Origin: a virus
IMG/VR virus record: IMGVR_UViG_3300011114_000091
Coordinates: 1-21,189 of that record
DNA: 21,189 bases
Reading direction: 5' to 3' (one strand)
The position numbers and the translations under genes were made by a program. How positions within the stretch are numbered: the first letter of the stretch is position 1; each line of letters starts with the position of its first letter. The notes under the pieces were generated by a model. The model made no database searches and had not been told where the DNA came from. It saw only the letters and a program-made list of their open reading frames with translations. Positions 6,599 to 19,404 of this stretch are shown in pieces.

Positions 6599-8377
6599 AT
6601 GTCTTTAACTAAAGTTTCAGCCTCCATGATAGGCGACGCTGGCGGTGGCCTTGCTGCTGCTGTTGCTGCGGTCGGGGCTACCTCAATACAATTTATTATT
6701 AGCGACAACTTGACTGTTTCTGACAATCTTACAATTCCCAGAAATATTAGCGTTTGCGTGTTTAATGGCGCAATAATTACCGTTGCAACAGGTAAGACTC
6801 TAACCATCAATGGCAATCTTGAAGCTGGCTTGTATCAAATATTCGGTGCAACTGGCAACGTGATTCTTGGTAAAGGATGCGTTGAGAAAGCAAATCCCGA
6901 ATGGTGGGGAGCTGTAGCTGATGGCACAACTGATTGCCAACCGGCAATAACTTTGTACGCTGCGGCGTTAATGGCATCTGGAAGTGGTGTTATTACATTT
7001 TCATTCTCTAGCGGCAATTACTATCTAGCAACGCCTGTCATTCTGTACCTTGATGCGACATTCCAAGGCATACGCATGGAAGGCACTGCTGCTATTTCCA
7101 ACTATGTCAACAAAGGAACGGTTATCACTGGCGCAGCAGCAATGCTCAGTATGTTTGTGTTTCGTGCTGTTGCAATCACAACAACGTTTTTCTATTCATT
7201 TGAATGTCGAAATATTGCTTTTCTTAGTGGAACATTTGGAACCACAGGGCCAAAATCAGCTTTGTTGTCTCTAGGTAGTGGACAGTCTGCTAGACCCTTT
7301 ATTGTGGAGAATTGCACGTTTAAGGGGTTTACTGCGGCAATCAAATCAGATATGACAGGGACAAGCCTATCTACTGGCATTTGTAACGTAATTATTCGCA
7401 AAAACTTTTTCCAGTTTAATACATATTCATTACATGGCGTTGGCACTGACTCAGTTGTTAATTTGGATTTTGCAGACAATCAAGCTGGAACTGGAGGCGG
7501 CATCAACGCTGCTGTTGGTGGCCCCTATTACATCCATAATAACATAATGGAAAGCAATGCAACTGCTCTTGGTAACGCACCTTCTATTGTCATATCAGGA
7601 GGTTTGCATAACGGGCGCATCACAAACAATTACTTTGAAGCGATTGTTACAGGTGATTTGATTAGCGTATCCGCAACAGCACCATATTCAACTGTTTATA
7701 TTAGCGATAACTATATAACTAGTTGCTCGGGTTCGTCAATTTCTGTGACGGGCGTTTACTTAAATATGCCTCAAGATTTGTCATGGGGCGGTGTTCAAGC
7801 AAGACCGAATTTGTTATACGGAAAGTCTGTTATCAACAGTCAATCTATCGTTTATCCAGCATCGCTTTCGATTGGTGAAGTGTGTCTTGATGTTTATTCT
7901 GTTGCGTTAAAAACAACGCTTAACCCTGCCACATTAACCAGTGCTGCATATTCCAATGCAGTTGGTGCAGCACAGATCACTCCTATGGGAGAAGCTGTCA
8001 ATGTAGACACAATCAATGGTGTAGGGGTAAATAGAGCATTTACGCTCAATGCGCTTACAGGAGACTGGATTGTTTTTTCTGCTCTGGTCAGAAGAAGGAA
8101 CTCTACGGCGGGGACACTTTACATTGAGGCAATAGATGGCGCGGGAATAGCTTCGATTGGTGCTTCAAATACCAACTCTGATATTTTGATGACTGGTGTT
8201 GGTGAGTGGGTCTATGTAATGAAGTATTTTCAAGCCACAGGCAACAGTGGTGCAACGATCAATTGGGCTTGGACTTCATCTGGTGGCGCTCAATTTGATG
8301 TTACTAGCACCTATATTTACAAAGTGGCTTCTCCTACGCTTACAACGCCAATTTATCTTGTGTTGCCATCGCTATAG
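6599..8377 (+). CDS. Tailspike with pectate-lyase-like beta-helix, possible polysaccharide depolymerase
   Basis: This 592-aa protein begins with LTKVSASMI, a short N-terminal peptide seen on many phage tail proteins. At residues 99-109 it has NPEWWGAVADG, a signature that opens the right-handed beta-helix of phage tailspikes and other pectate-lyase-fold proteins. The region to about residue 400 shows irregular strand-turn periodicity with many Asn and short GN/NN turns (IIRKNFFQFN; NNIMESNATAL; ITNNYFEAI), as in beta-helix coils. Residues about 450-592 look like a separate beta-sandwich, perhaps carbohydrate-binding or trimerising. I infer binding and possibly cleavage of capsule or O-antigen; catalytic acids cannot be assigned by eye. 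The whole gene is AT-richer than the capsid genes. AGGA eight bases before ATG 6599 supports the start. Confidence 0.75.
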   Translation: MSLTKVSASMIGDAGGGLAAAVAAVGATSIQFIISDNLTVSDNLTIPRNISVCVFNGAIITVATGKTLTINGNLEAGLYQIFGATGNVILGKGCVEKANPEWWGAVADGTTDCQPAITLYAAALMASGSGVITFSFSSGNYYLATPVILYLDATFQGIRMEGTAAISNYVNKGTVITGAAAMLSMFVFRAVAITTTFFYSFECRNIAFLSGTFGTTGPKSALLSLGSGQSARPFIVENCTFKGFTAAIKSDMTGTSLSTGICNVIIRKNFFQFNTYSLHGVGTDSVVNLDFADNQAGTGGGINAAVGGPYYIHNNIMESNATALGNAPSIVISGGLHNGRITNNYFEAIVTGDLISVSATAPYSTVYISDNYITSCSGSSISVTGVYLNMPQDLSWGGVQARPNLLYGKSVINSQSIVYPASLSIGEVCLDVYSVALKTTLNPATLTSAAYSNAVGAAQITPMGEAVNVDTINGVGVNRAFTLNALTGDWIVFSALVRRRNSTAGTLYIEAIDGAGIASIGASNTNSDILMTGVGEWVYVMKYFQATGNSGATINWAWTSSGGAQFDVTSTYIYKVASPTLTTPIYLVLPSL

Positions 8378-11191: not shown

Positions 11192-12880
11192 ATGCCAGAT
11201 TTTGGTTTTGTCGGGACTTCCTACGAAGCCCCATCCATCTATCAAGATGCTCAAGAGTGCATTAATTTCTTTGCTGAGATTGATCCTCAAAAGCAGCCTG
11301 GTGAACGTGGTGTTGTAGCGCTATACCCAACGCCAGGATTGGTGCTAAAAACGCAGCTTGCAGTGTCAGAAGTGCGTGGCCTGCACACAATGTCCGGCGA
11401 ACAGATCCTGATTGCGGTATCTGGCGCAAATGTGTACTCTGTCAATACCAGCATGGTGCCAACACTGATTGGCACCTTAACAAGCGTATTAGGGCAGGTA
11501 TCCATCAGCGATAACATCACGACCAACAACGGGCTAACAGCTTACATCGTAGATGGTGGTAGCCGCTACACCTGGATTGCAGCCACAAACACTTTTGCAA
11601 CCGTGTCTAGCGCTGATGGCCCGTGGCAAGGCGCAAACGTTACAGACCAAGTTGACAACTATTTTCTGTACAACGAGCCAGGAACGCAAAACTGGGCCTG
11701 TAGCGACCTTGGACTTGCCTCATCATCTTTGGCGCTCTACGGCACGGCTGATGGGTCTAGTGACCTTTTGGTAAGCCTTATTGTTGACCGCAGGCAGGTT
11801 TATCTGTTGGGCGAAACAACCACTGAAGTATGGACTGACGTTGGCAATGTAATCGCAGGCATCACAACTTTTCCTTTTCAACGGGTTCCCGGAACAAGTT
11901 CACAAAGTGGCATTGACGCACGGTTTTCGTTGGCGCGGTTTGGCGATAGCTTTGTTTGCGTAGCAAAAGACACTCGAGGCAATGGCACGATTGAGATGAT
12001 GCAGGGCTACACCTGGGTTCGCATTTCAACCCATGCAGTTGAGCAATCATTGATTGATAAACACACTGCTGATGCTATTGCCTACACCTACCAGATTGAA
12101 GGTCATGAAATGTACGTTGTTACATTTCCATCGGTTAATCTTACATGGGTGTATGACCTGTCCACCAAAAGCTGGCACAAGTGGCTGGCATTTGCCAATG
12201 GCGTTTATGGTCGGCATCGTTCAAATTGCGGTGCGTTCTTTGCTGATACCTACATTGTTGGAGACTACGAAAACGGCAAGTTGTACAGCATTCAAAACGA
12301 TGTTTACACAGAAGATGGCGCAACAATTCGCAGACTGCGTCGAGCGCCGCATTTGGTTGCTGATTTCCAACGTCAATACTTTGATGAACTGCAAATCCAA
12401 TTTCAACCTGGCGTTGGGCTAGGCGTTACACCAGGGTACGACTCCGAGGGCATCATTACTGAGTTGCTAAACGTCCCACCAGCCGGGCCAAGCTACCAAC
12501 TCATTGCTGAATTTAACTGGGAATACTTGGCAACAGAAAGCGGCGATAAAATCACTACTGAGGCTGGCGATGGTTTTGAATCGTTGGTGACGTTTGCCTA
12601 TACCGGGCCTGATACGGCTGGTGCTGAAATTGTCACTGAACAATATCCGGCAACCCCTGGGTACGATCCACAAGCCATGCTGCGGTGGTCAAGCGATGGT
12701 GGCAGCACCTGGTCAAGTGAACACTGGACTTCTATCGGCAAAATGGGCGAGTACAACAACCGTGCTATCTGGCGGCGGTTGGGTTGGGGGCGTGATCGAA
12801 TCTTTGAAGTAAGCATTTCAGCACCTGTTAAAGCGGTCATCATCAGTGCAAATTTGAAAGCGTATGCCGGGGATAACTGA
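11192..12880 (+). CDS. Packaged-DNA stabilisation protein, P22 gp10-like
   Basis: This 562-aa protein matches the gp10 family, which stacks beneath gp4 to close the tail and holds packaged DNA in place. Family features include the N-terminal GTSYEAPSIYQDAQECINFF, the IVDRRQVYLLGETTTEVW segment, FPFQRVPGTSSQSG, then RFGDSFVCVAKD, YDLSTKSWHKW and the terminal MLRWSSDGGSTWSSEHW. These suggest a beta-propeller-like repeat fold. P22 gp10 is 472 aa; much of the excess here is a segment of about 75 residues (413-487) between QPGVGLGV and the MLRWSSDGG strand, flanked by two copies of TPGYD. The gene starts one base after the previous stop, and its own stop overlaps the next start. Confidence 0.9.
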   Translation: MPDFGFVGTSYEAPSIYQDAQECINFFAEIDPQKQPGERGVVALYPTPGLVLKTQLAVSEVRGLHTMSGEQILIAVSGANVYSVNTSMVPTLIGTLTSVLGQVSISDNITTNNGLTAYIVDGGSRYTWIAATNTFATVSSADGPWQGANVTDQVDNYFLYNEPGTQNWACSDLGLASSSLALYGTADGSSDLLVSLIVDRRQVYLLGETTTEVWTDVGNVIAGITTFPFQRVPGTSSQSGIDARFSLARFGDSFVCVAKDTRGNGTIEMMQGYTWVRISTHAVEQSLIDKHTADAIAYTYQIEGHEMYVVTFPSVNLTWVYDLSTKSWHKWLAFANGVYGRHRSNCGAFFADTYIVGDYENGKLYSIQNDVYTEDGATIRRLRRAPHLVADFQRQYFDELQIQFQPGVGLGVTPGYDSEGIITELLNVPPAGPSYQLIAEFNWEYLATESGDKITTEAGDGFESLVTFAYTGPDTAGAEIVTEQYPATPGYDPQAMLRWSSDGGSTWSSEHWTSIGKMGEYNNRAIWRRLGWGRDRIFEVSISAPVKAVIISANLKAYAGDN

Positions 12881-13743
12881 TGGCAACAGCAATTCCCAAT
12901 TCCAACATCAATATTCCGTATGCTGAGTTTTTAGATCCGATTACGGGTAGGCCCAGCATTCCGTGGATGCAGTGGCTGATGAACCCAACGTTTATAACAA
13001 TTAATTTAGGGTCGGCAGTACCAGTTACCAGCGGCGGCACAGGGCTAACCACTATCCCGACCAACGGGCAACTTCTGATTGGCAATGGCACTGGATACAC
13101 ATTAAACACGCTGGGCGCTGGCGCAGGCATTTCGGTTACCAATGGCTTAGGCACCATCACGGTAGCCAACACGGGCGTTCTGAGCGTTTCTGGAGGCACT
13201 ACCGGCCTTACACCCGCTGCGGCTACTACGGGCGTTGTAACGCTGGCTGGAAGGCTTGCAATTGCCAACGGTGGCACAAACGCTACGGCTACCCCCACGG
13301 CAGGCGCGGTGGCCTATGGCACGGGTTCGGCATATGCGTTTACTTTGGCTGGGACACTAGGCCAATTTCTCACAAGTGCTGGTGCAGGAACGCCAACTTG
13401 GACAACCCCAACTAATGGAACTGTTACCAGCGTTGGCGGTACAGGAACGGTCAACGGCATCACGCTGACAGGCACGGTCACCACGGCAGGCAACTTGACG
13501 CTTGGCGGTGCGCTTAGTGGAGTGAGCCTGACAAGTCAGGTATCTGGCATCCTGCCGGTAGCTAATGGCGGCAATGGTCTAGGCGTGGCTTACACCGTAG
13601 CAACGCTGCCAACAGCCGGAACACAGGGCCGCAGATCATGGGTGACTGATGCTCTAGCACCAGTGTTTCTGGCGGCTCCTACGGGCGGTGGTGCGGTAGT
13701 CTGCCCCGTGTTTGACAATGGATCGGCTTGGGTAGTGGCATGA
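12880..13743 (+). CDS. Fibre protein at the tail-needle (gp26) position
   Basis: This 287-aa protein begins with YAEFLDPITGRPSIPWMQWL followed by MNP, a segment that recurs in small phage structural proteins next to gp10. The body is Gly/Thr-rich beta fibre with three variants of a repeat: VPVTSGGTGLT (about residue 47), LAIANGGTNAT (about 128) and LPVANGGNGLG (about 224), each typical of trimeric fibre shafts. The C-terminus (VATLPTAGTQGRRSWVTDAL, then FDNGSAWVVA) is a common phage fibre end. In P22 this position is the coiled-coil tail needle gp26; no long coiled coil is present here, so a beta-type needle or fibre is inferred. ATG 12880 overlaps the gp10-like stop by one base. Confidence 0.7.
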   Translation: MATAIPNSNINIPYAEFLDPITGRPSIPWMQWLMNPTFITINLGSAVPVTSGGTGLTTIPTNGQLLIGNGTGYTLNTLGAGAGISVTNGLGTITVANTGVLSVSGGTTGLTPAAATTGVVTLAGRLAIANGGTNATATPTAGAVAYGTGSAYAFTLAGTLGQFLTSAGAGTPTWTTPTNGTVTSVGGTGTVNGITLTGTVTTAGNLTLGGALSGVSLTSQVSGILPVANGGNGLGVAYTVATLPTAGTQGRRSWVTDALAPVFLAAPTGGGAVVCPVFDNGSAWVVA

Positions 13744-14177
13744 CCGTACTCACCTTAGTCACTCAAGTTACCAAAGAGCAGATTGAACGTTTGCAGAGCC
13801 AGATGGCGGCAATGCCGCAGGCTGAGTTGGTGACAGAGCATTCATTTAGTCCAGGAATGTATTTGCGAAAAGTATTTCGACCCGCAGGAACGCTGATTGT
13901 TGGCAAGGTGCATAAAGAGCCGCATTTCTTTCTTTGCGCCAAAGGTGAAATAATCGCTTGGACAGAAGGCGGCATGAAGCACTTGTACGCTGGGGATGTG
14001 GTGGAAAGCAAGCCAGGCACAAAGCGAGTGACACTAGCGGTGACTGATGCGATTGGGATTACCATTCACCGCACCGACAAAACAGATTTAGATGACATTG
14101 AAACTGAATTGATTGAACCGGACACAGCAGCATTGTTTGATTCTTCAAATAAGTTAAAAATAAAGGAGTTGACATGA
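13740..14177 (+). CDS. Cupin-like (RmlC-fold) protein at the gp14 position
   Basis: This 145-aa protein has an N-terminal amphipathic helix (VTKEQIERLQSQMAAM) and then a single cupin-like barrel: SPGMYLRKVFRPAGTLIVGK, VHKEPHFFLCAKGEIIAWTE, LYAGDVVESKPGTKRVTLAV and ITIHRTDKTD. The H-x3-H pair in KVHKEPHF and the later His in TIHRT are placed as cupin metal ligands usually are, followed by a Gly-Glu turn (KGEI). It has no signal peptide. ATG 13740 overlaps the preceding stop as ATGA, and the downstream gene overlaps its end likewise. It occupies the slot of P22 gene 14, a head-assembly/ejection gene. An enzymatic role and a structural role are both possible. Confidence 0.65.
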   Translation: MTVLTLVTQVTKEQIERLQSQMAAMPQAELVTEHSFSPGMYLRKVFRPAGTLIVGKVHKEPHFFLCAKGEIIAWTEGGMKHLYAGDVVESKPGTKRVTLAVTDAIGITIHRTDKTDLDDIETELIEPDTAALFDSSNKLKIKELT

Positions 14178-15031
14178 CTTGGGTAGCAGCAGCCTTATCG
14201 GGCGTAGGATCGTTTATTGGCGCAAATGCTTTACCGCTTGCACTTGGTGGTAGTGCTTTGTTGGGTTATGCGGGTTCAAAAGGCCAAGCAGATGCCGCTA
14301 CACAAGCTGGCCAACTTCAGTATCAAGCTACGCAAGATGCAGCCAAGCAGCAAAGGGAAATGTTTGACATTCTCAATGCTCAACAGCTGCCATACCGTAC
14401 CGCAGGAACAGGAGCATTAACCAGCTTGCAAAGTATGTTGCCGTACTTTACGGCAGAGCAGCCTGGTTACAAACCGTTTACGGCAGAAGATTTGAAATCT
14501 AACCTAGCGCCAAACTACCAGTTTATGAAAGAGCAAGGACTGGGCGCTACTGGTCAAGCAATGAACGTTGGCGGTGGCGGCAGCAATGTGGACTTGGCCA
14601 GAACTAAGTTTGCTGAAGATTACGCTGGCAATGCTTATCAGAATGCTCTGCAAAACTATATGTCCCAGCAGCAAAACATATTTAACCAAGACCAAAGCCA
14701 AAAAACCAACATCTACAACCGCCTGTCTAACCTGGCTGGCATTGGACAAACCGCTACAACCAACATTGGTAACGTGGGTGTTGGTACTGCTGCCAATCTT
14801 GGTAATCTTGGGATTGGTGGTGCTACGGCTCTTGGTTCTGGCAACATCGGTGCGGCAAACGTAATGGCTGGTGGCCTGCAAGGAATCGGAAACGCTGCAA
14901 CCTTGGCAAGTTTGCTTAGGCCACAAGGTGTTAGCTACTCACCTTCACAAGTTTCCAATGCTAATGCTATGAATGTTCCAACATCTGCAATGCCATTAGA
15001 TTCAAGTTTTAATAAATATCTAGTGGGATAA
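14174..15031 (+). CDS. DNA transfer / ejection protein, gp7-like
   Basis: The 285-aa sequence matches the general plan of phage DNA-transfer proteins packed in the head and ejected with the genome. It has a hydrophobic Gly/Ala N-terminus (LSGVGSFIGANALPLALGGS, ALLGYAG), then a Gln/Ala helix, then APNYQFMKEQGLGATGQAMN, GGGGSNVDLARTKFAEDYAG and a Gly/Asn/Ala-rich tail with imperfect repeats (LGNLGIGGATALGSGNIGAA). This layout and the phrase pattern PNYQF...GG...YG(A/G)N occur in many podovirus and siphovirus proteins annotated as ejection proteins. The order corresponds to P22 gene 7. The strong AAGGAG five bases before ATG 14174 and the ATGA overlap indicate high coupled expression. Confidence 0.75.
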   Translation: MTWVAAALSGVGSFIGANALPLALGGSALLGYAGSKGQADAATQAGQLQYQATQDAAKQQREMFDILNAQQLPYRTAGTGALTSLQSMLPYFTAEQPGYKPFTAEDLKSNLAPNYQFMKEQGLGATGQAMNVGGGGSNVDLARTKFAEDYAGNAYQNALQNYMSQQQNIFNQDQSQKTNIYNRLSNLAGIGQTATTNIGNVGVGTAANLGNLGIGGATALGSGNIGAANVMAGGLQGIGNAATLASLLRPQGVSYSPSQVSNANAMNVPTSAMPLDSSFNKYLVG

Positions 15032-15034
15032 AAA

Positions 15035-16525
15035 ATGGCTGATTTCAACATAACACCGATCGGCAACACCGTTAAACCCGTGGCTGGAATGTCGTTGTCT
15101 GACATGATGAACATGGCCAACAGTGCCCAGGCGTACCAGCAAGCCCAGCAGATCAATCCCCTGAACTTGCAAGCAGCACAGCAAACGGTTGAACAGGCAC
15201 GGCAGATGAACCCTATGTTGCTGCAACAACAGCAACAAATTGTTAACCAAGCTGCTCGAGTAAATCCAGAATTGTTGCGTAGTGTTACCGCTGCCGCAGG
15301 CACTGCCGAAACTGGTCAAGCGTCAGCTAAGTTGGATTTTGCCAATAAAAAAGTAATTGCTGTTGCTAACAGATTAACTTCTTTGATTATGAACCCGTTG
15401 ATCATTGCTGCCGCACAAAATCCAGAAGCGGTAGACAAAGATGCTTTTTATGGTTTGATAAAAAACTATGGCATGACTCAAGCTAAAGAAATGGGCATAC
15501 CAGAAGACCAAGCTAATTCTTTAATTCAACCTTATCTTGAAGTTCCTCCAGTTGCCATGCAACAGTTTTTAAAAGATAAATTCTTGTCAACAATTGAAGC
15601 TGGTAGTCGCCTTTCTGCTATGCAACCTACTGGCGTACCTGTTAGCAGCGGTGCTCATACATCAGTTATTTCCACCGGTATGTTTAGCGCTACTCCTGCC
15701 GGTGCTGCACTGCCAGGCACTACGGTTACAACCCAATTGCCACCAACCCAGCAGCTGATTGCCGTTGAAAATGATGGCACTGGCCTTGCACCTGGAACAC
15801 CATACGTTAAAGGCCCACAAACGGGTACTGTGCCTGGCCCTGTGCCAATGCTGTCACCAGCACCAAGACCAGCTGCGCCTGCTGCTATGGCTCCACCAGC
15901 CGTTAAACCGGCTGTTACAGGCCTGGCTCCTGGCGTTTCTCAGACAATAACGGCAAACGCAACAGTGGCAAGTGAAGATTGGTCAAACACTTCTAAAGAC
16001 GCAGCAGCTGCTCAACAACGCATCATGACGTTGCAGAAAATCAAGCAGTTGGCTCCTGAAGCGTTTACGGGTGTCCTTGGTCAACGCAAAGAGTTGATTG
16101 CAGGCATTGCTAATGCTATTGGCATTTCAGCGTATGAAGCAGAAAAGACAGCCACTGATGAGTTGATGAAAAACTCAAACCTGTTGTCTCTTGCTGGCGG
16201 TAATACTGATGCAGCCAGGTTGTTGGCAGAAGCAGCAAACCCCAACAAAAAGATGAACGAAAAGGCCATTAAAGACGTTGTTAAGCAACTGATTGGCATG
16301 GAAAACATGAAGTCTGCCAAAGCCCAATATCTTGGCCAATACAGAAGTGATCCTAATGCTTACATCCAAAAGTTAGCTGAGTTCAACGCTGTAGCAGACA
16401 GCAGGCTTTTTCAAGAAATGGACAGAGAAGAAGTTGCCAAGCTAAAAGCATCAATGAGTGAATCAGAGCAAAAAGCAATGATTGACAAAATTCGCAAAGC
16501 TAAACAAATGGGGGTCATCAAATAA
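15035..16525 (+). CDS. Internal virion / ejection protein, gp20 position
   Basis: This 496-aa protein follows the gp7-like gene, the order of P22 gp20. Residues about 30-82 are a Gln/Ala-rich helical region with an exact 18-residue periodicity of NP pairs at 41, 59 and 77. A mostly helical domain follows (about 95-200), then a Pro/Ala/Thr-rich disordered linker (about 205-310, e.g. PAPRPAAPAAMAPPAVKPAV), then a helical C-terminal domain with many Lys and Glu. No signal peptide, catalytic motif or transmembrane span is obvious. It starts three bases after the previous stop and ends in a TAATG overlap with the next gene. Function as a periplasm-spanning ejection protein is inferred from order and architecture. 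Confidence 0.65.
   Translation: MADFNITPIGNTVKPVAGMSLSDMMNMANSAQAYQQAQQINPLNLQAAQQTVEQARQMNPMLLQQQQQIVNQAARVNPELLRSVTAAAGTAETGQASAKLDFANKKVIAVANRLTSLIMNPLIIAAAQNPEAVDKDAFYGLIKNYGMTQAKEMGIPEDQANSLIQPYLEVPPVAMQQFLKDKFLSTIEAGSRLSAMQPTGVPVSSGAHTSVISTGMFSATPAGAALPGTTVTTQLPPTQQLIAVENDGTGLAPGTPYVKGPQTGTVPGPVPMLSPAPRPAAPAAMAPPAVKPAVTGLAPGVSQTITANATVASEDWSNTSKDAAAAQQRIMTLQKIKQLAPEAFTGVLGQRKELIAGIANAIGISAYEAEKTATDELMKNSNLLSLAGGNTDAARLLAEAANPNKKMNEKAIKDVVKQLIGMENMKSAKAQYLGQYRSDPNAYIQKLAEFNAVADSRLFQEMDREEVAKLKASMSESEQKAMIDKIRKAKQMGVIK
15149..15280 (+). repeat. 18-residue helical repeat within the gp20-position protein
   Basis: Residues 39-82 of the encoded protein contain two full units and one partial: QINPLNLQAAQQTVEQAR, then QMNPMLLQQQQQIVNQAA, then RVNPELL. 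Asn-Pro recurs exactly every 18 residues, equal to five turns of an alpha helix. The DNA units have diverged, so this is an old protein-level repeat rather than a recent tandem duplication. Confidence 0.6.
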
Positions 16526-19404
16526 TGGCTACTCTTGCTGATCTGTTTGAAGATACGCCTGCGGAAGTAGTGCCGACCAGCCCACCAAAGCTGACCGTTG
16601 TTCGTGCCGCACCACCACCACCAGTCGTACAAGCTGCTTCTGCCCAGCCGGTCGCGCAGCCCACATCCCGGTTTGATGCGTCCGAGCAAAAGTCACGCGA
16701 CTCCGACTCCCGGCTGATCCTGGAATCTGAACTCAAGAAAGCCGAATCCCGTCAGACCGACCTACTGCGCGAATACAACAATGGTGAACCTGAAAAGCGT
16801 GGTGGCGAGGCGCAAAACTACCAGAAGTACGTCGAACGTGTGGCTGAACTCAAGGCAAGCCTGGCGCGTAACGAAAGTGACATGGCTGGCATTCGCCGTG
16901 AACTAGGTCGCGTTCCTGCGTCAAAGTTGACCGTTGTTCCATCATTAACATTGAGCGATCCTGTTCCAATTGCTGCTTATCCTCCTGCACAGCCTGCTGC
17001 ACAGCCTGCTGCACAGACCGCTAAAGATGTGGGGAACTTTTCTGATTTGTTTGAAACAACAGTACCAGCATATGAGCCAGGCTCAGTTGTGCAAAAGCCT
17101 GTGCCACAAGTCAGTGCATACGCCGGCACCAGAGGCGATACCGGCATTTCTGGTGGCGATGGCCCGATTGCCCAAGCAGCGCTAAAGCATTTAAAGGCTC
17201 TAGGAGCCGCAACAGCATCATTGGCTGACACAACCATTGGCGGCATCATCCCTGGCGTTGCTGGGCCTCTTACCTATGCTGGCGCTCGAGCCTTGCAACT
17301 ATCGCCAGACGAGGCGGCGGCTGCTGAAAAATCAGTTGTTGGAGCCTTAGAAAAGCCGTTTGGCAAGGCATTTGGCGTTACTGAATCCCCTGCTTACAAA
17401 GGTGAACTGAGCCGAGAAATCATGGATTTTATTGGCAAAAACGTTGGCAAAGGTGCCAAGTACATTGCTGAACAAACAGGATTGCCAGAAAGCGATGTTG
17501 CCAACATGATTGGCACAGGCTTAGTCGGCGTTGCTCCTGTTGTCGGAAAAGTTACAGCACCTGTCAGACGGGCATTGGGACAAGGCGTATACGAAATAAC
17601 TGAACCTGTTGCTAGGAGCATTGATAACTTTGCTGGCAAGCCTGTAGCGGCTGCGGTGGAACGTCCCAGGGTTGAGCCTACGATGGAAGCACCTTTGACA
17701 GAGGCAGCAGGATCAGGAGCAATGTCTGCCACTCAGTTGGCAGATACTCAGGCGGCATTTGCCAAGCGCCAAGAGGCGGCGGCTGCTGCCAAGGCTGCTA
17801 TGCCACCACCAGCTGCTACACCAACTGCTGTGGCATTGCCTGCTGGCGCGGAGCCTGGTAGTGTGGGGGCTGCTGCTGTTCGTGCTAACCCGTTTGCTGG
17901 AAAACTTACTGGTGAAGTTGTTGGTTCAAAAGGACAATTCCCGCAGGTTAAATTATCTTTAGTTGCTGAAAATGTACCAGTAACTGAGCAACAGTTAATT
18001 TCAAGAATTGCTCAAGAGGTCAATCCTGGTCAACCAGTTCGAAGCGGTGTGATCACACGGAATGAAGGAACATTGCGCACAGAACACACTGAAGCAAATA
18101 TGCCTAACTTAACCCCAAGGGGTCAAGTGTTGAAGTCGCAGATAGCAAATGAACAAAACGCATTGACAAACTTTAGCAAAGAAAGAATTGACGCCACAGG
18201 CGCATCACCAACTTTGTTGAGCGATTCAATGCGTGGAGAAGTAATCAACGATGTATTTTATGGAGCAGCAATAGAAGGCGAAGCGGCAACAAGTTTGATT
18301 GCGTACCTAGATCAATCAAAGCGTCAAATTTATAAATCAGCGTTAGACCGGGTTGGTAGCAATCAAATCAAAACTTCAAACATTGATAACTTGTTAAAAA
18401 ATCCACAGTGGAAAGCAGGTCTTGAATTTAAAGGTGTTGAAGGTGTTGCCAAAGGTGCTGAGAAATATTTGAACCTTGCTAAGACAACAGGGTTTGAAGA
18501 TGTGAATGGGGTGATGCACCCACCTGGAACCGTATCAACTTATGACGCTGTACGCAAAGCTGTTAATGCAGAATGGTCACCAGAAAACGCAAGTGCAATT
18601 CGAAAAATAAACGAAGCAATTGACAAAGATATTGCCGCAGTTGCAGACCCTGCCTTGTATAAACTTGGAGACAAAATTCATCAAGTTGAAAAAATTATTT
18701 TTGGTTCAAAAGGAATTAAAAATTTGTTTGGCAAAATAGATAAAAATGGTGTTGTCTTATCTTCCACTCCATTAGAAAAAATACCTACTAAATTAAATGA
18801 ATTGGCAAAAGATCAATGGCAGCACATTAGAGGCACATTAGATGAATTGGCAAATGGACAAGTAAGAGGCGCGCCAAGCGGTATGCCACCTGTCCCTGCT
18901 GAGTTGCGTCAAGCGGCAGCTGTTGCAAGAAACGAAATTGATGGTGCGTTGGCAAGGGCTGTCTATCAATCTGGATCAAATAAAGCTGGCGTATGGAATC
19001 AAAATTCTGTTAACACAACGTTAAATTCTGTTATTGGTGAAAAAATTTTGGAGAACTTTCCACCATCAGAAGTTAAAAAATTCCATACGTTAAACATCGC
19101 TGGTTATTTGATGCCTGGTATCCATTCTTACGAGGGCGCTGCATTGCAAGCTAGAAGGGCTGGCAAAATTGAAGCGTATGCTGAAAAAGCTGGCATTGGT
19201 GCTGGCGCAGCAACAGGTGGATTTGTAGGTTCGGCATTTGGCCCAGCAGGAACCACAGCAGGCACTGTTATAGGTGGTGAAGCTGGGCGAAGGTTTGGAG
19301 CAGCAATCAGCGGTAAACAAGCAGCAAAAGCAGAGGCAAAAGCTGCTGATGCTTTAAGAAATGAAATGCAAAAAAATGCACAACTTAGAGATATGTTGCC
19401 ATGA
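16525..19404 (+). CDS. Large internal virion / ejection protein, gp16 position
   Basis: At 959 aa this is the largest gene and the last structural one, the place of P22 gp16. The N-terminus (ATLADLFEDTPAEVV) and residues 171-180 (NFSDLFETTV) share a DLFE motif, and KLTVV occurs at 22-26 and 134-138, separated by a charged helix (about 53-128) and a Pro/Ala/Gln linker containing an AQPA repeat. Residues about 210-370 are Gly/Ala helices resembling membrane-interacting segments (TIGGIIPGVAGPLTYAGARA; GLVGVAPVVGKVTAP). The middle to C-terminal region is mixed helical, and about 890-930 is a Gly/Ala-rich stretch (IGAGAATGGFVGSAFGPAG) that could insert in membrane. No lytic transglycosylase motif is evident. 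The DNA is AT-richer from about 17900 onward. It starts in a TAATG overlap. Confidence 0.65.
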   Translation: MATLADLFEDTPAEVVPTSPPKLTVVRAAPPPPVVQAASAQPVAQPTSRFDASEQKSRDSDSRLILESELKKAESRQTDLLREYNNGEPEKRGGEAQNYQKYVERVAELKASLARNESDMAGIRRELGRVPASKLTVVPSLTLSDPVPIAAYPPAQPAAQPAAQTAKDVGNFSDLFETTVPAYEPGSVVQKPVPQVSAYAGTRGDTGISGGDGPIAQAALKHLKALGAATASLADTTIGGIIPGVAGPLTYAGARALQLSPDEAAAAEKSVVGALEKPFGKAFGVTESPAYKGELSREIMDFIGKNVGKGAKYIAEQTGLPESDVANMIGTGLVGVAPVVGKVTAPVRRALGQGVYEITEPVARSIDNFAGKPVAAAVERPRVEPTMEAPLTEAAGSGAMSATQLADTQAAFAKRQEAAAAAKAAMPPPAATPTAVALPAGAEPGSVGAAAVRANPFAGKLTGEVVGSKGQFPQVKLSLVAENVPVTEQQLISRIAQEVNPGQPVRSGVITRNEGTLRTEHTEANMPNLTPRGQVLKSQIANEQNALTNFSKERIDATGASPTLLSDSMRGEVINDVFYGAAIEGEAATSLIAYLDQSKRQIYKSALDRVGSNQIKTSNIDNLLKNPQWKAGLEFKGVEGVAKGAEKYLNLAKTTGFEDVNGVMHPPGTVSTYDAVRKAVNAEWSPENASAIRKINEAIDKDIAAVADPALYKLGDKIHQVEKIIFGSKGIKNLFGKIDKNGVVLSSTPLEKIPTKLNELAKDQWQHIRGTLDELANGQVRGAPSGMPPVPAELRQAAAVARNEIDGALARAVYQSGSNKAGVWNQNSVNTTLNSVIGEKILENFPPSEVKKFHTLNIAGYLMPGIHSYEGAALQARRAGKIEAYAEKAGIGAGAATGGFVGSAFGPAGTTAGTVIGGEAGRRFGAAISGKQAAKAEAKAADALRNEMQKNAQLRDMLP
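16987..17016 (+). repeat. 12-bp tandem repeat, 2.5 copies, encoding AQPA
   Basis: The unit GCACAGCCTGCT occurs at 16987-16998 and 16999-17010, followed by a half copy at 17011-17016. It is in frame and encodes the Ala-Gln-Pro-Ala linker of the large ejection protein, so slippage would change linker length without breaking the frame. Confidence 0.8.

Follow-up and report, generated by a model that had tools for sequence, protein, structure and literature searches.

In phage P22, gene 14 lies between the head closure and needle genes and the gene for gp7. Its product carries the Pfam designation DUF2824 (PF11039) and the label "head morphogenesis" in its record, and in the portions of the literature searched, DUF2824 receives a bare mention (PMC7946995), with PMC11773190 as a further paper that came up for it. 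T7 gp13 (PF11090) is described as "necessary for infection", with its location given as undetermined, in the sections covered of one account (PMC8811829). A T7 study at about 3 Å builds gp14, gp6.7 and gp7.3; its main text, when searched, returns no mention of gp13 (PMC11784390). A protein that is needed for infection yet goes unmentioned in the structure paper would fit a factor scarce in, or absent from, the virion. For both of these long-known proteins, the records and the parts of the literature searched give no mechanism.

We analysed a 21,189-nucleotide stretch of viral DNA (IMG/VR record IMGVR_UViG_3300011114_000091; the window), in which an original prediction had placed a small cupin-like protein among the ejection genes, in the slot of P22 gene 14, and had offered three roles for it: virion component, assembly factor or sugar-modifying enzyme.

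Gene order in the window and the cupin reading frame

Gene order and PHROG profile matches identify the window as the late region of a P22-like podophage, running from portal, scaffold and major head protein through the head closure gene Hc3 and a fibre-like gene to the cupin ORF, a "DNA ejection" gene and two long ORFs. The cupin ORF lies between the fibre-like and ejection genes and takes the slot that gene 14 has in P22, as had been proposed. A megablast search found no near DNA match to the window among 50,697 phage records. The features discussed below are the following:

11192 to 12880, + strand: head closure Hc3 (P22 gp10-like); phrog_578, E 3.1e-95
12880 to 13743, + strand: tail-fibre-like protein upstream of the cupin; phrog_31660, E 1.1e-6; this neighbour is not conserved in the cupin family
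13740 to 13743, + strand: ATGA overlap of the fibre-like and cupin genes; read from the sequence
13740 to 14177, + strand: cupin-fold protein of the PHROG 12032 family, 145 aa; profile match, AlphaFold2 model and fold matches
13911 to 13925, + strand: codons of H58-K-E-P-H62; aligned with the TM1459 chain in a weak match, E 0.034
14067 to 14069, + strand: codon of H110, a possible third ligand; His in 69 of 97 representatives
14164 to 14168, + strand: AGGAG, resembling a ribosome-binding site for the downstream ejection gene, within the 3' end of the cupin gene; read from the sequence
14174 to 15031, + strand: P22-gp7-like "DNA ejection" protein downstream of the cupin; phrog_598, E 2.8e-16
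15035 to 16525, + strand: ORF in the gp20 position, placed by position; best family match E 0.094
16525 to 19404, + strand: ORF in the gp16 position; weak tape-measure-like match, phrog_167, E 3.6e-7

A direct BLAST comparison of the 14174-15031 protein with P22 gp7 was not significant and Pfam returned no match, so its tie to gp7 is made by the PHROG profile. At the other end of the window, the portal gene is read in two frames (2-1075 and 1021-2199) that correspond to the first and second halves of phrog_156, which could reflect either an assembly or sequencing error or a genuine frameshift. A 592-aa ORF (6599-8377) lies between the head and tail genes and matches phrog_4250, "EPS depolymerase", weakly (E 9e-4); it has no match in the loci of 80 relatives, whose flanks may end before it.

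The cupin ORF runs from ATG to TGA over 145 codons, with HKEPH at residues 58-62, GTKR at 93-96 and a histidine at 110. Taken alone, such a frame is only mildly unusual: 25 of 2000 mononucleotide shuffles of positions 13500-14400 contained one of 145 codons or more. We accept it as a real gene because it has homologues, both in PHROG 12032 and among phage and IMG/VR relatives. As predicted, it overlaps each neighbour by four bases, sharing an ATGA with 12880-13743 and another with 14174-15031. By eye, no clear ribosome-binding site lies directly 5' of the cupin gene, so its translation is likely coupled to that of the upstream gene at the 13740-13743 overlap.

The PHROG 12032 family

The window protein matches PHROG 12032, "short tail fiber protein", with E 1.4e-36 (residues 5-137 against profile positions 13-146 of 160), and the corresponding protein of the whole virus record does so with E 1.4e-38. 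Further matches are to PHROG 24280, "tail fiber adhesin" (1.9e-30), and PHROG 34170 (2e-17); the Pfam Cupin_2 score, 16.4 bits, is under the cut-off of 27.2. Relatives occur in 61 phage records, which include phages of Vibrio, Shewanella, Thalassomonas, Dickeya, Sphaerotilus, Variovorax and Rhodoferax, and Bordetella phage BPP-1 (Bbp23). In IMG/VR, 137 of 146 pattern matches were confirmed as relatives, and 80 were kept. From 264 loci with a cupin match we dropped, before clustering, 12 without a complete ORF, one with a 536-aa protein (L133) and the window's own locus (L266); clustering at 70% identity then gave 97 representatives. ORF starts were set mechanically at the farthest upstream ATG, and some N-termini are overlong.

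Within this known family the window protein is nothing out of the ordinary. Members of PHROG 12032, 24280 and 34170 (PHA00672 in older records), such as BPP-1 Bbp23, VvAW1 gp04, BA3_0007 and SnaP-R1 gp38, are homologous to it over most of its length, and in most of the named phages inspected they stand before ejection genes, as in the window. They are annotated as tail fibre or hypothetical proteins. Among the records listed, four from Vibrio are named "RmlC-like jelly roll fold protein", and to recognise a cupin here is therefore no novelty.

In the portions of the literature searched, the family appears only as PHA00672 in a VvAW1 table (PMC3558961), and no biochemical or proteomic data, virion proteomics included, were found for any member. 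In the sections covered, mass spectrometry of BPP-1 concerns two main capsid bands (PMC3863775), and a word search of the main text of the phage X14 paper finds no mass spectrometry (PMC9011153).

Predicted fold and candidate metal ligands

An AlphaFold2 model built from an 87-sequence alignment (pLDDT 90.8, pTM 0.82) bears out the predicted cupin barrel. The monomer is a single compact domain with a beta barrel at about residues 31-110 and flanking helices, and it has the double-stranded beta-helix fold of the cupin superfamily. The best matches in a Foldseek search of the PDB are cupins, led by 3fjs (E 4.1e-7). VIA-align gave HP0902 with Z 10.8 (rmsd 2.1 over 86 residues), and its further matches include KdgF (10.0), D-lyxose isomerase (9.8), a TM1459 variant (9.3) and phosphomannose isomerase (9.1); the cupins of CENP-C, within Z 9-10, and Mif2 are also among the fold matches. 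Because the matches near Z 9-10 are tied, the fold identifies a superfamily and not a reaction. The absence of RmlC among the fold matches listed excludes nothing. For the suggested sugar-modifying role this comparison offers no specific support, since many other cupins score level with the sugar isomerases.

The canonical cupin motif 1 is G(X)5HXH(X)3-4E(X)6G, and motif 2 carries a histidine. The window protein departs from both, reading K56-x-H58-x3-H62-x6-G69 in the first and GTKR in the region of the second. In a weak profile alignment (E 0.034) with a chain of the manganese cupin TM1459, H58 and H62 stand opposite His54 and His58, and K56 opposite His52; we take His52, His54 and His58 to be metal ligands of TM1459. 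The two proteins would thus have the fold and two histidine positions in common, and differ at His52, replaced by K56 in the window protein, and at the motif-2 histidine of TM1459, which would fall at K95/R96 by motif spacing, beyond the printed alignment. H110 is a possible replacement ligand.

Across the 97 representatives, R43 is kept in 97, G69 in 96, H34 in 92, H58 in 85, H62 in 75 and H110 in 69. The original prediction had proposed histidine metal ligands and looked to homologues for their conservation, and here the outcome is divided: 59 of the 97 representatives have histidine at 58, 62 and 110, as the window protein does, whereas BPP-1 Bbp23 has lost all three. A metal enzyme is therefore plausible for the window protein and not for the whole family. 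Judging from these residues, the window protein could bind metal through H58, H62 and H110, which would share one pocket.

Gene neighbours across the family

We extracted the flanking ORFs of 251 cupin loci by a mechanical choice, which went wrong in a few cases, such as a 194-base ORF following L005. The downstream set holds 89 proteins, the window's and those of 88 of the 97 representatives, nine having no suitable downstream ORF; the upstream set holds 86, the window's and 85 of 95 neighbours, with 10 short or doubtful ORFs left out. Downstream, the DNA ejection families phrog_598, phrog_21132 and phrog_4287 match 49, 11 and 3 of the 89 proteins, counts that may overlap, and Pfam assigns 12 to P22_gp7 and 5 to T7_gp14. 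A few of the 89 match internal virion families. Families named "tail fiber protein" are rare there (phrog_1980 in 2 of 89, phrog_6921 and phrog_5668 in 1 each), as are two Rz-like spanin families (1 and 1 of 89). The 86 upstream neighbours are spread over 118 families, the commonest occurring in 6. Because the downstream matches recur and the upstream ones scatter, the usual partner of the cupin is the ejection gene and not the fibre gene. The cupin gene overlaps its downstream neighbour by four bases in 93 of 251 loci and is separated from it by one base in 70, many of these loci being close relatives.

Two T7-like phages, Sphaerotilus phage SnaP-R1 and Variovorax phage VAC_51, have the cupin in the T7 gene-13 position, directly between tail tubular B (labelled "tail protein" in VAC_51) and a gene of the T7_gp14 family. 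The cupin genes of BPP-1, ctQRb9 and Foturvirus H4/4 are found near a head-to-tail connector gene and have no recognised gp7- or gp14-type neighbour. Given the frequency of phrog_598 downstream, the scatter upstream and the gene-13 position in the two T7-like phages, the name "short tail fiber protein" is doubtful, and PHROG 12032 is probably misnamed. Among 64 relatives with both flanks, the window's genes were covered over at least 80% of their length as follows: the cupin in 64 (median identity 82%), the gp7-like gene in 60 (60%), Hc3 in 57 (74%) and the fibre-like gene in 21 (59%), a comparison biased toward the cupin because the loci were gathered by cupin similarity. Taken together, the gene neighbours suggest that the cupin helps to make or modify ejection proteins.

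Fusions to a SET domain

In some 55 of the fetched loci the cupin is joined to a domain resembling SET lysine methyltransferases (L091, L098, L462, most of L099-L152, and L158). Among the 60 proteins longer than 240 aa, a pattern search recovers both SET signature motifs in 45, and inspection by eye adds another 10; the remaining five (L196, L202, L228, L236, L257) are not SET proteins and are probably over-called at their starts. Rhodoferax phage P26218 gp30 is one such cupin-SET protein, with the SET domain at the C-terminus (phrog_34170, E 3.1e-168; PF00856 at 16.2 bits, under the cut-off of 22.4), and UOF81456 of MW202744, with the domain at the same end, is another (PF00856 at 27.0 bits against the same cut-off). 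Both occupy the slot before an ejection-type gene. In MW202557 a cupin-SET ORF (L462:2563-3447) takes the same slot and overlaps a gp7-like gene by four bases; it is unannotated in the public record, which has a reverse-strand ORF annotated nearby. The SET domain of P26218 gp30 and of the MW202557 ORF, both of the phrog_34170 type, is additional, being absent from the window protein.

None of the 14 SET-fused representatives keeps H110, which is Y, F or I instead, so all 69 instances of H110 belong to unfused proteins. In 7 of the 14, H56-Q58 replaces K56-H58, and one unfused representative (L154) has the fused-type pattern. Because the SET-fused proteins are probably mainly one clade, the fusions do not count as independent events. 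One cupin-SET protein is already listed in BFVD as "SET domain containing protein", and our literature search for SET domains in phage papers returned nothing relevant among the papers listed.

The slot before the ejection genes

P22 gp14 precedes gp7 in the slot that the cupin takes in the window, and is of similar size. Our model of P22 gp14 (L096:8911-9366; 20-sequence alignment including phiSG1-like relatives; pLDDT 83.4, pTM 0.80) resembles GNAT acetyltransferases, SpeG among them (E 3.2e-9, TM 0.79), and gp14 is accordingly predicted to have a GNAT fold, in contrast to the cupin of the window. The assignment comes from the model, a search of the PDB by sequence giving no GNAT match. The comparison with gp14 that had been proposed for the cupin turned out negative: hhalign gave probabilities of 1.15% and 0.22%, PF11039 has no match in the window protein, and we reject homology on the profile comparison and the GNAT model. 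With a GNAT-type model for gp14, it appears that unrelated small enzyme-type folds fill one slot. At the T7 gene-13 position, where the cupin extends the slot finding beyond P22-like phages, T7 gp13 has no family in common with the cupins of SnaP-R1 and VAC_51.

Neither DUF2824 (PF11039) nor T7 gp13 (PF11090) was found in any of 49 cupin-bearing records (17 named phages and 32 IMG/VR records hand-picked from more than 200 cupin loci, some possibly incomplete); the controls P22, phiSG1 and T7 respond. GNAT genes (PF00583) coexist with the cupin in 3 of the 17 named phages, adjacent to it in BPP-1 and ctQRb9 and apart from it in SnaP-R1, so GNAT and cupin are not strict alternatives. In BPP-1 and ctQRb9 the cupin gene comes directly after the GNAT gene, and the pair lies close to the head-to-tail connector gene (L081:11483-12402 and L377:3992-4902). 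The GNAT-gene region of Limnohabitans phage DC33 (L378, PQ492659.1; 39 kb) is laid out like that of ctQRb9; DC33 is filed under Inoviridae, a label that is probably wrong.

We also considered whether the slot proteins of P22 and T7 form one family; hhalign on shallow alignments gave no significant match between them. A C-terminal stretch of T7 gp13 looks GNAT-like by eye, and neither a PDB profile search nor Pfam returned such a match. MW202520, whose ejection protein is homologous to that of the window (38.8% identity over 67%), has a different, 123-aa ORF in the slot, homologous to PBR31 orf030 at 40% identity (L460:2819-3190, L461:2975-3346). These two, of which the MW202520 ORF is unannotated, form a third slot family. 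An FCKRLGF stretch suggested GNAT by eye, and no family model or hhalign comparison confirms it (best match phrog_308, E 0.043, for orf030). Two genes upstream of orf030, PBR31 orf028 is named acetyltransferase and has no family match. In Escherichia phage Sortsne, yet a further family, phrog_17333, lies between the needle and ejection genes (L464:1984-2382).

Possible roles of the cupin

Our preferred reading, put forward tentatively, is that the cupin is an assembly or modification factor for ejection proteins that acts before procapsid loading. A cupin-fold morphogenesis factor would be made just ahead of the first ejection protein (of the P22 gp7 type, or in some relatives of the T7 gp14 type), its translation probably coupled to that of this partner. 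It would most likely act in the infected cell upon the nascent ejection protein, either binding it as a client in the manner of a chaperone or modifying it enzymatically through a putative pocket lined by H58, H62 and H110, and the ejection protein would then be loaded into the procapsid. The cupin would fill the slot of the GNAT-fold P22 gp14 without being its kin. A factor that acts on the ejection protein would explain the usual partner, the translational overlap, the position in common with P22 gp14 and T7 gp13, and the SET fusions.

A structural part of the internal core or of the ejected channel, present in several copies beside the gp7-like protein and non-enzymatic, with the barrel as a dimerising or binding module, seems to us somewhat unlikely. 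The gene does stand within the ejection block, where it shares bases with the gp7-like gene, cupins can be non-catalytic dimerisation domains, as the CENP-C and Mif2 matches recall, and the ligands are lost in part of the family. However, the retention of H34 (92/97), R43 (97/97) and H58 (85/97) is stricter than a plain structural role seems to need, and the SET fusions point to a protein-modifying context.

Jelly-roll folds are able to bind sugars, the window's upstream neighbour is fibre-like, and phrog_12032 and phrog_24280, the two function-bearing PHROGs of the family, are both named for tail fibres, as several GenBank records are, all of which would suit a short tail fibre or adhesin. 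This role rests on inherited names, and the fold, neighbours and fusions speak against it, so that we regard it as quite unlikely: the model is one compact 145-aa cupin domain, the upstream genes vary freely whereas the ejection gene usually stays, the cupin is covered in 64 of 64 relatives against 21 of 64 for the fibre-like gene (with the bias toward the cupin already described), and some members carry SET domains with signature motifs. The fold matches to KdgF, D-lyxose isomerase, the TM1459 variant and phosphomannose isomerase would suit a metabolic or sugar-modifying enzyme with a small-molecule substrate (an isomerase, lyase or dioxygenase). This role is highly improbable: many other cupins score level with those enzymes, the usual first His and the Glu are missing from motif 1 (K56, H62), motif 2 has K/R for His, and none of 19 window proteins scanned matches a sugar-biosynthesis family, the nearest being the weak "EPS depolymerase" match at 6599-8377.

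The preferred reading, a factor acting on ejection proteins, can be carried further. The place before the ejection genes may be a protein-modification slot in which a GNAT, a cupin or a cupin-SET protein each modifies ejection proteins, probably on lysine side chains, before packing, and so tunes loading or membrane insertion. We consider this extension unlikely as it stands. If true, post-translational maturation of the ejection machinery would be a step not recognised until now, carried out by three enzyme folds with no relation to each other.

For annotation, the "short tail fiber protein" label of PHROG 12032 is poorly founded and may mislead predictions of receptor binding. The window protein itself is unexceptional, and the interesting part is the slot pattern together with the SET fusions: cupin, GNAT fold and cupin-SET in one place suggest a common step that prepares ejection proteins.
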